Shown here one piece after another: positions 29,194-35,234 of a stretch of DNA of 64,000 nt. The DNA is taken from contig JACCRF010000030.1 of assembly GCA_013813715.1 (NCBI GenBank), forward strand, positions 1 through 64,000, read 5' to 3'. Each line of letters opens with the position of its first letter. The first letter of the stretch is position 1. Position numbers and translations under genes: made by a program. The notes beneath the pieces are model-generated. The model saw only the letters and a list, made by a program, of their open reading frames with translations. It was not told the origin of the DNA and ran no database searches. The DNA is from Gemmatimonadaceae bacterium (lineage in GTDB: Bacteria; Gemmatimonadota; Gemmatimonadetes; Gemmatimonadales; Gemmatimonadaceae).

Positions 29194-29622
29194 CTACGTC
29201 GAGCGCCGCCTGACGCGCTCGATGTCCCGCCTGTCCTTCTTTGTGGGACGTCCGCTCTCGTAACCGGTGCTCGCGCTCATCGCCCGGACGTGCGCGGCCA
29301 TCGCTTCCCGGGCCTTCCTGCTGTCTACCGTCTCCTGGTAGAGGGCTGACGCGATCGCCGCTGACCCTCGCCGATCTGATACGCCCTGCACCTCAATAAC
29401 GTGCTCGTAGGGGCCGCTGCGAATGCGGAGCCGGTCTCCCGCCTGAACCAGCCTCGATCGTTTCGCGCGCTCGCCATCGACCTCGATCTTCCCACTGTCG
29501 ATCGCCTCCGCGGAGAGGCCCCTGGTCTTGTAAAAGCGGGCTACCCACAGCCACTTGTCCAGCCGAACCCGTCCGCCGGGCTGGCCACCTCCGGTGAGCG
29601 ATTCAGTCTTGCGCATGGTCAC
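29194..29622 (-). CDS. S4-domain RNA-binding protein (Hsp15-like)
   Basis: A 142-residue protein whose S4 RNA-binding domain starts with VRLDKWLWVARFYKTRGLSA and continues to IEVDGERAKRSRLVQAGDRL, as in Hsp15/RqcH-partner (RqcP-like) proteins. The C-terminus is a basic helix rich in Arg and Lys, as in Hsp15, which binds 50S subunits carrying stalled nascent chains. The product is cytosolic. The start could be GTG 29622 or ATG 29616. The gene is transcribed away from the metal operon promoter, and only about 40 bases separate it from the -35 element of that operon. Confidence 0.88.
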   Translation of the reverse strand: MTMRKTESLTGGGQPGGRVRLDKWLWVARFYKTRGLSAEAIDSGKIEVDGERAKRSRLVQAGDRLRIRSGPYEHVIEVQGVSDRRGSAAIASALYQETVDSRKAREAMAAHVRAMSASTGYESGRPTKKDRRDIERVRRRST

Positions 29623-29661: not shown

Positions 29662-29692
29662 TTGACAATAGTCGAAAGTTAGGATAACCTAA
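29662..29692 (+). promoter_or_regulatory. promoter overlapped by a DtxR/IdeR-like palindrome
   Basis: TTGACA at 29662-29667, a 17-base spacer and TAACCT at 29685-29690 form a plausible sigma-70 promoter. The perfect inverted repeat TTAGG-ATAA-CCTAA (29679-29692) covers the -10 element. The core half-sites and 4-base spacer equal those of the DtxR/IdeR/MntR-type iron or manganese operators. A metal-loaded repressor bound here would block the promoter, fitting the oxidase and ZIP genes downstream. No dtxR-like gene is in the window. Confidence 0.65.
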
Positions 29693-29760
29693 TTTATTGA
29701 TATGGCGGTACCGAAACCTAAGATTTGGCAGTCCCTAATCCGAACCAAGCGGGTAGCTCC

Positions 29761-30603
29761 ATGAGATCATTCTGCGCCGTGGCGATTCTCGTCGCCGGCT
29801 CCATTGGCGCTCAGGAACCTGCGGCGAAGCCGCCGGAAATCGACCCCCCCATCCAGGACAACAGCTTCCTGATCGAGGAAGCATACAACCAACCCGCCGG
29901 GGTGGTGCAACACATCAACACCTTCACGCTCGGCCGGAAGACGGACTCGTGGGCCTACACATTTACGCAGGAATGGCCACTGTTCAACCAGCGCCATCAG
30001 GTCAGCTACACCATTCCCCTTTCCCGCACCGACCGCCGCGTGACGATGGGGCTCGGCGACCTCGGCTTGAATTATCGCTATCAGGTCCCGACCGGACGGC
30101 ACGCCGATCTCGCCGTCGCGCCGCGCCTCAGCTTCCTGCTTCCGACAGGCGCGGTATCGAAGGGCAGAGGCACCGGCGCCATCGGGCTTCAGGCGAATCT
30201 CCCAGTCAGCTACGCGCTGACCACGTCTCTCGTCACCCACTCGAACGCCGGCATCACGTACACGCCCTCGGCGGAAAACGCCTTCGCAAACAAGGCGACG
30301 ACCACCGGCTTCAATGTCGGGCAGAGCCTGATCTGGCTTTTTCGGCCGACGTTGAATTTCATGCTGGAGCTTGCGTGGGAAAGTAGTGAAGAGGTACTCG
30401 TCAACGGCCAGCGCGCACGGAGCGAAGGGCTCCTGCTGGCACCAGGAATTCGCGGGGCCCTGAATCTTTCCTCCGGACTTCAGGTGGTTCCAGGAATTGC
30501 GGTGCCAATCGGCATCGGGCCGAGTAACGGCGAAAGGTCGGTTTTCTTCTACCTGAGTCTCGAGCACCCCTTCGGAGGCAAAGCGCTCGAGGAAGGAAAA
30601 TGA
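29761..30603 (+). CDS. putative outer-membrane beta-barrel protein of the metal operon
   Basis: A 280-residue protein with a signal peptide (about 1-17, ending SIGAQ) and then alternating amphipathic strands (QVSYTIPLSRTDRRVTMGLG, LGLNYRYQVPTG, LAVAPRLSFLLPTGAVSKG) ending in YLSLEHPFGG. This pattern resembles the MetA/phenol-degradation or transporter-like barrels often found with exported metal or organic uptake genes. ATG 29761 is preferred over the open frame from 29725 because of the signal peptide and GCGGGT upstream. The stop overlaps the oxidase start (ATGA). It is the first gene behind the DtxR-like operator and could be a pore or receptor for a metal or metal complex. Confidence 0.75.
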   Translation: MRSFCAVAILVAGSIGAQEPAAKPPEIDPPIQDNSFLIEEAYNQPAGVVQHINTFTLGRKTDSWAYTFTQEWPLFNQRHQVSYTIPLSRTDRRVTMGLGDLGLNYRYQVPTGRHADLAVAPRLSFLLPTGAVSKGRGTGAIGLQANLPVSYALTTSLVTHSNAGITYTPSAENAFANKATTTGFNVGQSLIWLFRPTLNFMLELAWESSEEVLVNGQRARSEGLLLAPGIRGALNLSSGLQVVPGIAVPIGIGPSNGERSVFFYLSLEHPFGGKALEEGK

Positions 30604-31700
30604 CGAATCCGATCGAAAAAGCGCCGGCCGCGGACGGCGTGGCAGAGCCGGCGCCTGGGCTGTCGCGGCGCGGTTTTGTCAAAGCGGCAGGTGTAGGCGG
30701 AACTGGACTTCTCGGGGCCGCGGCACTCGGCATTTCGCGTGGCGGGCTTGCCCAGGGGTCCCAGTCGCGCCCGGCTACTTCGTATGCGCCAGCGCACGGA
30801 GCTGGCGCGCACCTGATGCCGACAGTTGTTGGTGAAGTGGATCATGTGAAGAACGGATTCAACCCGTCGCAGATTTTGGGCGACTTCGACGGGGGCACCA
30901 TCAGCACGCTTCCGAGTGGCCAGACGCTGCGCGAGTACTCGCTCGTCGCGCAGAACACCACGATCGAGATCGTTCCGGGAGTCGAGTTCGCGGCGTGGAC
31001 CTACAACGGCCGCGTCCCGGGCCCGACTATTCGCGTGACGGAGGGCGACCGCGTCCGCATCACTCTGCACAACGCCAGCGATCACCCGCACAGCGTTCAT
31101 TTTCACGGCGTCCATCCCGGACTCGTTGACGGAGTGTTCGATATCAGGTCCGGGGTGGTTCAACCGAACGGCCGGCACACGTACGAATTCGACGCTGAGC
31201 CGTTCGGGCTGCACCTCTATCACTGCCATACCGCACCACTCGCCAAGCACATCGCGAAGGGGCTCTATGGAACGTTCATCATCGACCCGAAGGGCGGCCG
31301 GCCAAAGGTCGACCGCGAGATGGTGATGGTGATGAGCGGGTACGATGTCGACTTTGATGGAGCAAACGATTTTTATCTCGTCAACGGGATCCCATTCCAC
31401 TACGACCATGGAAAGAACCCGATCACGCTGCGAGTCGGCGAAAAGGTGCGAATCTACCTTGTGAACGTGCTGGAGTATGACATTTCCAACTCATTCCACC
31501 TGCACGCGAACTTCTTTCACTACTATCCGACCGGAACGAGTCTGACGCCGAGCGAGTTCACGGACACGGTGGCGCTGATGCAGGGCCAGCGCGGCATCCT
31601 CGAATTCAGCTTCCGGCACCCAGGGCGGTACATGTTTCACGCGCACAAGACCGAGTTCGCCGAGCTCGGCTGGACTGGAGTCTTCGAGGTCGGGGCGTAG
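30600..31700 (+). CDS. Tat-exported two-domain multicopper oxidase
   Basis: A 366-residue protein with a Tat signal (LSRRGFVKAAG, about 22-32) and two cupredoxin domains. The four HxH motifs that bind the trinuclear copper cluster are present: HFH at 167-169, HCH at 208-210, HLH at 300-302 and HAH at 347-349. The type-1 copper Cys (C209) lies in domain 1, with His downstream (AKHIAKGLYG) and Leu where Met is the usual axial ligand. Domain 2 has no Cys. This is the arrangement of type-C-like two-domain laccases, which act as trimers. With a ZIP transporter and a DtxR-like box, oxidation of Fe(II) or Mn(II) is the most likely role. A nitrite reductase is less likely because all trinuclear His are kept. 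Confidence 0.88.
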   Translation: MTNPIEKAPAADGVAEPAPGLSRRGFVKAAGVGGTGLLGAAALGISRGGLAQGSQSRPATSYAPAHGAGAHLMPTVVGEVDHVKNGFNPSQILGDFDGGTISTLPSGQTLREYSLVAQNTTIEIVPGVEFAAWTYNGRVPGPTIRVTEGDRVRITLHNASDHPHSVHFHGVHPGLVDGVFDIRSGVVQPNGRHTYEFDAEPFGLHLYHCHTAPLAKHIAKGLYGTFIIDPKGGRPKVDREMVMVMSGYDVDFDGANDFYLVNGIPFHYDHGKNPITLRVGEKVRIYLVNVLEYDISNSFHLHANFFHYYPTGTSLTPSEFTDTVALMQGQRGILEFSFRHPGRYMFHAHKTEFAELGWTGVFEVGA

Positions 31701-31702
31701 CG

Positions 31703-32902
31703 GTGGCGGCGACCGAGGTTCCAGAAAGCCCGGCACGTCCGCGTTTCAACCGCTTCACGCTGCTATTCGCCCCTCTCGTGCTGCTGGCCGGCGTGATTGC
31801 GCTGTTCGTATTCACGAGCGGCGCCGGCCTGAACGTGACGCCCGCCGCTCCCATCGAGACAGTCCAGTTCGGGCGCACGGTACTGAGTCCGGGAAGAATC
31901 GAGCTATCCCTTCGCAACACGAGCCCGCAAGAGATTAGAGTTGCTCAGGTCAACGTTAACGACGCGATCTGGCCGTACACGATTTCTCCCGGCCCGGCGA
32001 TCTCGCGCCTCGGCAGCGCCACGCTGACCCTCGAGTACCCGTGGGTGCAGGGCGAGGCATACGAAATATCGATCCTGTCCGCCAATTCGATTGCTTTCGG
32101 CACTTCGATCGATGTTGCAACCGAGACCGCACACAGGTCCGGCGGCACGCTGTGGAGCTTCACGCTCATCGGTATCTACGTTGGCCTCATTCCGATAGTG
32201 CTTGGCATGTTCTGGCTGCCGCTCCTCAGGCAGCTCGGCCCGCGCGCCATCGCGTTCCTGATGGCGGCGACAGTCGGCTTGCTTGTGTACCTCGGCATCG
32301 ACGCGACGAGTGAAGCGCTGGAGCTGGGCGGCGTGCTGGGCGGTGCGTTTCAGGGAACGGGGCTGGTGGGCATCGGGATTGTGGGAACCTGGCTGCTGCT
32401 CGACACGATCAGCCGCCGCCAGAGAAGCATCAAGCAGAGTGAATCGGGACAGCGGATGTCGCTCGCCCTGGTGATCGCGGCGGGAATCGGCCTTCACAAC
32501 CTCGGCGAAGGCCTGGCCATCGGCGCGGCTTACGCGGTGGGCGCGGCGTCGCTCGGTACTTTTCTCGTGATTGGATTCATCATCCAGAACATCACTGAAG
32601 GTCTTGGGATCGTCGTTCCGCTGGCCAAGGGGCGGCCTTCAATGCAATCCCTTGCATTGCTTGGTTTCATCGGCGGCGCACCGGCGATCGTTGGAACGTG
32701 GATTGGCGGGCTTATTTACTCGCAGCCCCTGTCCGTTCTGTTTCTCGCTATCGGTGCGGGCGCGGTATTTCAGGTGGCGTTCGAGATTGCCAGGCAATCG
32801 ATCTGGAAGGACGCGTCGGCCCGGCAGGCACCCGCAGTCACCTTCGCGGGTGTGCTGGCGGGGATGCTGATACTCTACGTCACTGGCGTCGCGATCAAGT
32901 AA
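31703..32902 (+). CDS. ZIP-family metal transporter with extra N-terminal beta domain
   Basis: This 399-residue protein starts at a GTG two bases after the oxidase stop. After one membrane helix (about 18-36) it has an extracytoplasmic domain of roughly 100 residues with beta-rich text (VLSPGRIELSLRNTSPQEIR, ATLTLEYPWV), and then seven or eight helices of the ZIP fold. The TM4 metal motif is HNLGEG (H265, E269). TM5 has QNITEG (Q295, E299) where HNxPEG is usual, so one metal ligand is Gln. ZIP proteins carry Zn, Fe or Mn into the cytosol. The linkage to an oxidase suggests Fe or Mn. Confidence 0.9.
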   Translation: MAATEVPESPARPRFNRFTLLFAPLVLLAGVIALFVFTSGAGLNVTPAAPIETVQFGRTVLSPGRIELSLRNTSPQEIRVAQVNVNDAIWPYTISPGPAISRLGSATLTLEYPWVQGEAYEISILSANSIAFGTSIDVATETAHRSGGTLWSFTLIGIYVGLIPIVLGMFWLPLLRQLGPRAIAFLMAATVGLLVYLGIDATSEALELGGVLGGAFQGTGLVGIGIVGTWLLLDTISRRQRSIKQSESGQRMSLALVIAAGIGLHNLGEGLAIGAAYAVGAASLGTFLVIGFIIQNITEGLGIVVPLAKGRPSMQSLALLGFIGGAPAIVGTWIGGLIYSQPLSVLFLAIGAGAVFQVAFEIARQSIWKDASARQAPAVTFAGVLAGMLILYVTGVAIK

Positions 32903-34085: not shown

Positions 34086-35234
34086 ATGGCCACGACAGTC
34101 GAACCCCCGGGCAGAACGCGTCACGAGCCTGATCTTCACACCTTCGAACACCATTGGCAGGACGAAGCGGACGCGGCTTTCCTTTACCGTATTCTCGCGG
34201 CCTCCGAGCCTGACGCGCGCAAGAAGGGGATCTATTCGCGGCTGGCCGAGGTTGAGGACAGGCATGTGGTCGTCTGGGGAGAGTTGCTGGCGAAGCACGG
34301 CCATCCGCCAAAGTTTTTCAAGCCAAGCACACGCGCACGCGCGCTGGCTGGTCTCGGGAAATTGTTCGGGCCCGGTTTCCTGCTGCCGATGCTGCTCGAA
34401 GAAGAGGGTCGCGAGGTCAAGGCATATCTCGACATGCATCGCGCCACGCCGGCGGGGGCGCCCGGGGGTGGCGAGGCACTCACCCTCGCGAAGGAGTCGG
34501 CCGAGCATGCGACCACCCTCGCGGGAATCGCCGGCAAGAGCGGCGAGCCGTGGCATCGGACGGGGTCCGGCGGATTTCTCAGGAACGTGGTTTACGGATT
34601 CAACGACGGACTTACGGCGAACTTCGGACTCGTCGCCGGCATCATCGGCGCGAGCGTCGCCCAGGAGCATCAGGCGGTGATCGTCGCCGGCGTCGCGGGC
34701 CTCATTGCCGACGCGCTGTCCATGGGCTCGAGCGGATACCTGGCGGCTAAGAGCGAGCGTGAGGTTTACGACTACGAGATCGCGATGGAGCGCGACGAAA
34801 TTGCGCTGATGCCCGAGATCGAGCGTGACGAGCTGGCGCTCATTTACGAGGCCAAGGGGATGGACGCCGACTCGGCGCACCGGCTCGCAACGCAGGTGAT
34901 GGCCGACCCCGAGCGGATGCTCGAGGAGCAGGTACAAGAGGAGCTGAAGATCGGAGAGCAGACCATCCCGCCATTTCGCGAGGGCTGGGTGACCGGACTG
35001 GCGACGGCGTTCGGAGCGATCATTCCGGTGTTTCCTTTCTTCTTTGCGCGCGGCCCGACGGCGATCGCGATGTCATTTGGTTTTTCGATGCTGTCGCATT
35101 TTCTGGTCGGCGCGGCGCGGTCGGTATTCACTGGCCGCAGTATTCTCCGCTCGGGCCTCGACATGTTTGTCGTCGGCCTGGGCGTGGCGGTCGTCGGCTA
35201 TTTCGTGGGTGACTGGGTGGGGAAGGTCTTCTAG
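34086..35234 (+). CDS. mbfA: ferritin-like/VIT1 fusion membrane protein (MbfA-type iron exporter)
   Basis: A 382-residue protein. The N-terminal 160 residues form a rubrerythrin-like four-helix domain with di-iron ligands in EHHWQDEADAAFLY, RLAEVEDRHVV, EEEGREVKAY and AKESAEHA. The C-terminal part is a VIT1/CCC1-family membrane domain with VVYGFNDGLTANFGLVAGI, LIADALSMGSSGYLAAKSE and a charged loop between helices. This is the architecture of MbfA, the membrane-bound ferritin that exports iron and protects against peroxide in Rhizobiales. In VIT1 relatives the same fold moves Fe or Mn out of the cytosol. It lies about 1.2 kb from the multicopper-oxidase/ZIP operon, giving import and export of metal in one region. 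Confidence 0.92.
   Translation: MATTVEPPGRTRHEPDLHTFEHHWQDEADAAFLYRILAASEPDARKKGIYSRLAEVEDRHVVVWGELLAKHGHPPKFFKPSTRARALAGLGKLFGPGFLLPMLLEEEGREVKAYLDMHRATPAGAPGGGEALTLAKESAEHATTLAGIAGKSGEPWHRTGSGGFLRNVVYGFNDGLTANFGLVAGIIGASVAQEHQAVIVAGVAGLIADALSMGSSGYLAAKSEREVYDYEIAMERDEIALMPEIERDELALIYEAKGMDADSAHRLATQVMADPERMLEEQVQEELKIGEQTIPPFREGWVTGLATAFGAIIPVFPFFFARGPTAIAMSFGFSMLSHFLVGAARSVFTGRSILRSGLDMFVVGLGVAVVGYFVGDWVGKVF

Follow-up and report, generated by a model that had tools for sequence, protein, structure and literature searches.

A three-gene operon of a soil bacterium of the Gemmatimonadaceae joins genes for an outer-membrane β-barrel, a multicopper oxidase (MCO) and a ZIP permease behind a DtxR/MntR-type operator. 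It occupies positions 29761–32902 of the window, by which we mean the whole stretch of DNA analysed (the first 64,000 nucleotides of contig JACCRF010000030.1, assembly GCA_013813715.1). On balance, its sequence features indicate that it is probably an MntR/DtxR-repressed cassette for the acquisition of a transition metal, most likely Mn(II) and possibly also Fe(II), and metal-repressed uptake in general appears reasonably likely. Uptake under manganese or iron scarcity is suggested because metal-repressed expression would here be combined with a permease of an importer family. Between the two metals manganese is favoured, with iron also possible. A sequence-only reading of this DNA had proposed Fe(II) or Mn(II) handling, which is the right class of function. 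The operon and its control region comprise:

29662–29690, forward strand: predicted sigma70-type promoter (−35 TTGACA at 29662–29667, 17-nt spacer, −10 TAACCT at 29685–29690 inside the operator box)
29679–29692, no strand assigned: DtxR/MntR-type operator TTAGGATAACCTAA, exact match to the consensus in PMC8464063
29761–30603, forward strand: outer-membrane β-barrel, 280 residues, with signal peptide; accessory channel
30600–31700, forward strand: two-domain MCO, 366 residues, with twin-arginine (Tat) signal and type-C layout
31703–32902, forward strand: ZIP permease, 399 residues

The genes are tightly coupled. The barrel and MCO genes overlap in an ATGA at 30600–30603 (the MCO ATG is at 30600 and the barrel stop codon ends at 30603), and only 2 nt separate the end of the MCO gene at 31700 from the GTG start of the ZIP gene at 31703. 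The barrel gene most likely starts at the ATG at 29761, which gives the signal peptide MRSFCAVAILVAGSIGAQ, and not at the TTG at 29725 of the listed open reading frame. An S4-domain gene on the opposite strand (29194–29622) lies upstream of the operon. Gene order, coupling and motifs had all been described in the sequence-only reading, and each feature is present where it was placed.

The pairing of the oxidase with the ZIP permease is real and obligate. Across a phylum sample of 298 Gemmatimonadota genomes (ZIP matches at E ≤ 1e-40, MCO matches at E ≤ 1e-70), 52 encode the ZIP protein, and exactly the same 52 encode the MCO. No genome in this sample carries one without the other, a strikingly tight linkage for uncharacterised metal genes. 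Among 61 relatives, the genome of the window included, the ZIP protein is found in 11 and a close MCO in the same 11, encoded next to each other. The ZIP gene lies directly 3′ of the MCO gene in the fetched loci, except in G246 and G252, where the genes fall on different short contigs or at the end of a contig. Co-occurrence in other genomes, which the sequence-only reading had offered as a check on its proposal, is thus borne out, with adjacency wherever the contigs allow. The same arrangement is seen in 77 ZIP loci on GTDB contigs, nearly all from Chloroflexota, which have the MCO gene directly upstream wherever the contig reaches that far; the exception is a distant archaeal locus (L119), whose ZIP match is partial and 28% identical. 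In plasmids, ZIP matches occur in 150 records and MCO matches, at their stricter limit, in 129, and most genera give equal counts for the two (Pseudosulfitobacter 37/37, Rhodococcus 30/30, Sinorhizobium 10/10).

The distribution of the pair takes in no fewer than nine groups of bacteria and archaea, together with many conjugative plasmids. Besides Gemmatimonadota, these groups include Chloroflexota, Planctomycetota, Deinococcota, Actinomycetota, Alphaproteobacteria, Bacilli, Cyanobacteria and haloarchaea, the haloarchaeal pair being homologous to that of the window, and annotated loci represent Deinococcus, Rhodococcus, Arthrobacter, Pseudosulfitobacter, Shinella, Cytobacillus, Leptolyngbya and Halobaculum. 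In the trees of both proteins the window copy forms a clade with five other Gemmatimonadota copies, and this clade has Chloroflexia as its nearest neighbour, which suggests that the MCO and ZIP genes were transferred as a unit. Distances between MCO sequences correlate with those between their ZIP partners (r = 0.93, n = 117, a value inflated by shared ancestry).

Judged by its sequence, the operator is a true site of the DtxR family, as the sequence-only reading had supposed. The 14-bp TTAGGNNNNCCTAA is the consensus proposed for a single dimer in a structural study of IdeR (IdeR/DtxR; PMC8464063); it is found here at the promoter, and DtxR/MntR genes adjoin the pair in many loci. The copy at 29679–29692 is the only exact one in the whole 3.73-Mb genome. 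A search for TTAGG-N4-CCTAA sites upstream of oxidase and ZIP genes, suggested by the same reading, reveals an enrichment of about 100-fold at operon starts. In 86 non-redundant operon-start windows of 240 bp each, the exact box occurs in 15 (mean of shuffled sequences 0.02), the box with up to one mismatch in 40 (shuffle mean 0.4, maximum 3) and the box with up to two mismatches in 67 (shuffles 6.5). An unbiased dyad search of these windows returns TTTAG-N6-CTAAA as the top hit, with 29 occurrences against 0.07. The shuffles and the conservation at operon starts reject a chance origin of the box.

The position of the box is informative about the direction of control. In the window it overlaps the predicted −10 element of the TTGACA promoter, inside the core promoter. 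Many Chloroflexota loci have a TTGACA-N17-TAAAAT-like promoter in which the box begins 6–10 nt after the first base of the −10 element, so that it would cover the start site, and Deinococcus QL22 carries an exact TTAGGCAGACCTAA between −35 and −10. On these predicted promoters the placement is repressor geometry in all three settings.

The regulators encoded near the pair point in the same direction as the operator. Of 81 loci, 53 have a DtxR-family gene within the stretch that was fetched; it frequently sits immediately 5′ of the MCO gene or immediately 3′ of the ZIP gene, and FeoB or NRAMP then follows in many loci. In Shinella and Pseudosulfitobacter the MCO–ZIP genes are divergent from an MntR gene whose product passes the equivalog model NF008273 (240.1 and 204.6 bits against a cut-off of 153). 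The Shinella intergenic region contains CATAGC-N4-GCTATG palindromes, which resemble the enterobacterial MntR box. The genome of the window has one protein with an Fe_dep_repr_C domain, an MntR-like regulator encoded on contig 64, and this is probably the regulator of the operon. It scores 188.9 bits against the MntR model NF047407, below the cut-off of 350, and lower, at 95, as DtxR. At its primary site it has Asp and Glu, as MntR does and as most of the operon-linked regulators do, and regulators linked to FeoB also retain the primary-site Asp; in DtxR the primary site contains Met and Cys. The own mntH product passes the NCBIfam MntH cut-off.

Two observations on regulator genes stand beside these results. 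On contig 64 the MntR-like gene belongs to a cluster of the order mntH–uspA–regulator (5270–7865 of L134). Six loci (L054, L055, L065, L071, L089 and L094) carry two distinct DtxR-family genes in one gene run, one of about 225 codons after the MCO–ZIP genes and one of 335 codons directly before FeoB, and the two types carry different residues where DtxR has Cys102.

The permease belongs to the ZIP family by Pfam match, by motif and by fold. It scores 38.1 bits against the Pfam Zip model, just above the cut-off of 35.1. Its AlphaFold2 model (mean pLDDT 85.9) comprises a transmembrane helix (residues 17–37), a β-sandwich (54–136) and the ZIP domain (147–398), and the best fold match is BbZIP. 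The motifs HNLGE (265–269) and QNITE (295–299) correspond to the metal-site motifs of transmembrane helices 4 and 5; H265, N266, E269, N296 and E299 within them are invariant in 42 ZIP sequences, as are P50, E52, N72, R102 and W114 in the region of the β-domain. The β-sandwich is predicted to be extracytoplasmic, and it may dock the MCO. A cupredoxin identity for this domain was rejected: its nearest folds are the β-sandwiches of archaellum FlaG/FlaF, at marginal E-values.

The MCO matches Cu-oxidase_3 and Cu-oxidase_2 in Pfam, has a Tat signal scoring over the cut-off and finds its best PDB match in 3GDC (E = 3e-117). Ligands were assigned from sequence alignment, by homology with NirK and other MCOs. 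Domain 1 has HxH, YHCH and HxxxxL/M motifs, and domain 2 has two HxH motifs and no Cys. The predicted type 1 (T1) copper ligands H164, C209 and H217, with L222 in the axial position, occur in domain 1 only, and eight His residues (H167, H169, H208, H210, H300, H302, H347 and H349) are predicted to hold the trinuclear cluster. This combination indicates that the protein is a complete two-domain multicopper oxidase, not a nitrite reductase, and the ligand His and Cys do not vary among the 23 members compared, which come from nine groups. Throughout the MCO family D294, N297, Q328, E352, F353, L356 and W358 are conserved without exception; the four compared paralogues lack them. Two other identities were rejected, copper nitrite reductase (104.7 bits against the TIGR02376 cut-off of 296.3, with type 3 His present) and CopA, the model for which matched in part and far below its cut-off.

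Two kinds of gene accompany the oxidase elsewhere. A TatA/TatE gene lies directly 3′ of MCO–ZIP on a Cytobacillus plasmid (L180:7150–7326), consistent with Tat export of the oxidase. A gene for a plastocyanin/azurin-like cupredoxin lies just 3′ of the unit in L056, L078, L083 and L182; its position is after the DtxR gene in Anaerolineales and directly after the ZIP gene in Halobaculum.

An oxidase beside a metal permease recalls the iron-uptake system Fet3–Ftr1 of yeast, to which the sequence-only reading had compared the operon. The MCO would then be a ferroxidase that hands Fe(III) to the ZIP permease. The axial T1 position of Fet3p is Leu, as in the window copy, and FeoB and DtxR neighbours and the absence of a detected FUR protein from the genome would also fit iron. 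The comparison breaks down at the permease, in which no REXXE motif was found and which has instead a ZIP fold with BbZIP-type divalent-metal motifs. Several orthologues of the MCO have Met in the axial position, and the alphaproteobacterial copies come with true MntR genes. An oxidised product, Fe(III) or Mn(III/IV), would not feed the ZIP permease directly, so the simple analogy does not fit; because ZIPs carry divalent ions, we regard a strict Fet3–Ftr1 analogue as unlikely. The operon also differs from the yeast system in having a soluble, two-domain, Tat-exported MCO and probably in its metal.

Several observations weigh against the favoured reading. The own mntH promoter has no TTAGG box with up to one mismatch, and a second operator there was rejected. 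A FUR-family protein (PF01475) was not detected in the metagenome-assembled genome of the window (96.6% complete) but is present in 13 of 14 control genomes; given this, the own DtxR-family protein may be the main sensor of both iron and manganese. Copies of the pair linked to FeoB point to iron; a FeoB search of the own genome gave weak GTPase matches, the best at 47 bits. An ArsR-family gene replaces DtxR near the pair in Cytobacillus and Leptolyngbya, and the Rhodococcus copy has no DtxR gene nearby. Plasmid copies often lie within copper or heavy-metal islands. In Nitrososphaera viennensis, copper limitation raises expression of MCO1 and its adjacent permease, modestly, with log2 fold changes of 0.81 and 1.33 (PMC7785015). 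Finally, the sequence does not explain why a metal importer should need an oxidase.

Two further alternatives were considered. In the first, proposed for ammonia-oxidising archaea, the MCO turns Cu(I) into Cu(II) and the ZIP permease imports copper. The archaeal induction and the copper genes near several plasmid copies are in its favour, but the operators and regulators are of the DtxR/MntR (Mn/Fe) family and NRAMP and FeoB co-cluster with the pair, which makes copper acquisition improbable for the window operon. In the second, the MCO works outside the cytoplasm to oxidise surplus Mn(II), Fe(II) or Cu(I), and the transporter is secondary. Pair copies in heavy-metal islands on plasmids and the weakly PcoB-like fold of the barrel (TMq 0.37) agree with such detoxification. 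A box over the promoter core fits repression by metal, however, and not activation, and the oxidase is obligately paired with a member of an importer family. Should the regulator act as a co-repressor, the location of the box on the promoter makes detoxification, which the sequence-only reading had left as an option, unlikely; we give it little weight.

Metal-repressed uptake would proceed as follows. When metal is plentiful, the metal-loaded repressor would occupy the TTAGG-N4-CCTAA box over the promoter and keep the operon off; when metal is short, repression would lift. The ZIP permease would import the divalent ion, presumably Mn(II), through the inner membrane. The Tat-exported MCO, perhaps partnered by the ZIP β-domain, would oxidise competing or ligand-bound species in the periplasm. 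Candidate substrates are Fe(II), Cu(I) and organic chelators, and their oxidation would condition the metal supply to the permease. In some Gemmatimonadota a small outer-membrane channel would aid entry of the putative cargo. A role in oxidising competing Fe(II) or Cu(I), or organic ligands, is more coherent than feeding oxidised metal to the ZIP permease, and we put it forward tentatively. Similarly speculative is a broader picture of an ancient, horizontally mobile, oxidase-coupled Mn(II) importer under MntR/DtxR control, in which the MCO docks on the extracytoplasmic domain of the ZIP permease and filters or frees metal; as part of that picture, the system might be a prokaryotic functional counterpart of Fet3–Ftr1 for a divalent metal.

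The barrel is an accessory component. Its AlphaFold2 model (pLDDT 71) is a β-barrel whose nearest folds are FapF and COG4313 channels; these are closer than PcoB, which was rejected as an identity. It has no confident Pfam family, with DUF3187 scoring below the cut-off. Barrel homologues lie directly 5′ of the MCO gene or 3′ of the ZIP gene in 15 of about 50 Gemmatimonadota loci (about 30%), and the Chloroflexota loci examined yielded none, so the barrel was rejected as an essential part. The idea of an oxidase–ZIP unit with its own outer-membrane component thus holds for the pair and not for the barrel as an integral member.

The sequence-only reading had known of no experimental description of an oxidase–ZIP unit with its own outer-membrane component under metal control. 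For the pair this does not stand: linked MCO1–ZIP genes have been published in ammonia-oxidising archaea, with a Fet3-type analogy for copper (PMC7785015, PMC5767755). The N. viennensis pair (NVIE_000600/000590) likewise sets a two-domain MCO gene beside a ZIP gene and is reported to have a Leu axial ligand too. The likeness is one of gene order, protein families and reported axial ligand, with copper proposed as substrate. The available parts of these papers mention neither DtxR/MntR control nor a barrel, whereas the window operon has a DtxR/MntR-type operator and a barrel, and its regulators and operators predict Mn/Fe repression, unlike the archaeal copper-uptake proposal.

Other known systems share single elements with the operon. 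As in the MntR/MntH regulon, an MntR or MntR-like regulator gene is adjacent, the own regulator gene is clustered with mntH and a palindromic operator sits on the promoter; the window operon adds the MCO and ZIP genes, and its regulator falls below the MntR equivalog cut-off. The PcoA/CopA–PcoB/CopB copper-resistance systems also combine an MCO with an outer-membrane barrel, but the window operon differs in its ZIP gene, its DtxR-type operator and an oxidase far below the CopA cut-off. On a plasmid of Arthrobacter sp. FB24, a monoderm host with no barrel, the MCO–ZIP genes are divergent from a DtxR-family gene, the MCO agrees with 3GDC over the aligned part, and the function of the pair is not described in the papers found. 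In the open-licence literature we found no paper on a bacterial MCO–ZIP operon, on its DtxR/MntR or manganese control or on the barrel, none on the 7RAB oxidase and none for the enterobacterial MntR box comparison. The DtxR/MntR control, the bacterial breadth and the barrel appear to be new here, the pair itself being already known and uncharacterised. If the proposed function is correct, the pair would give soil and water microbes a widespread, oxidase-assisted way of taking up manganese or iron, and it would suggest a role for the structurally solved oxidase of Arthrobacter.

Farther downstream, 1.2 kb 3′ of the operon and past an opposite-strand PDZ gene, the window encodes a VIT1-family protein (34086–35234, forward strand); the intervening PDZ gene led us to reject it as an operon member. 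Its long N-terminal extension appears ferritin-like on visual inspection and has no Pfam match; the protein might be an iron/manganese exporter of the erythrin-VIT (MbfA) type. The Arthrobacter FB24 plasmid likewise has a VIT1/CCC1 gene, about 3 kb away from its MCO–ZIP pair.

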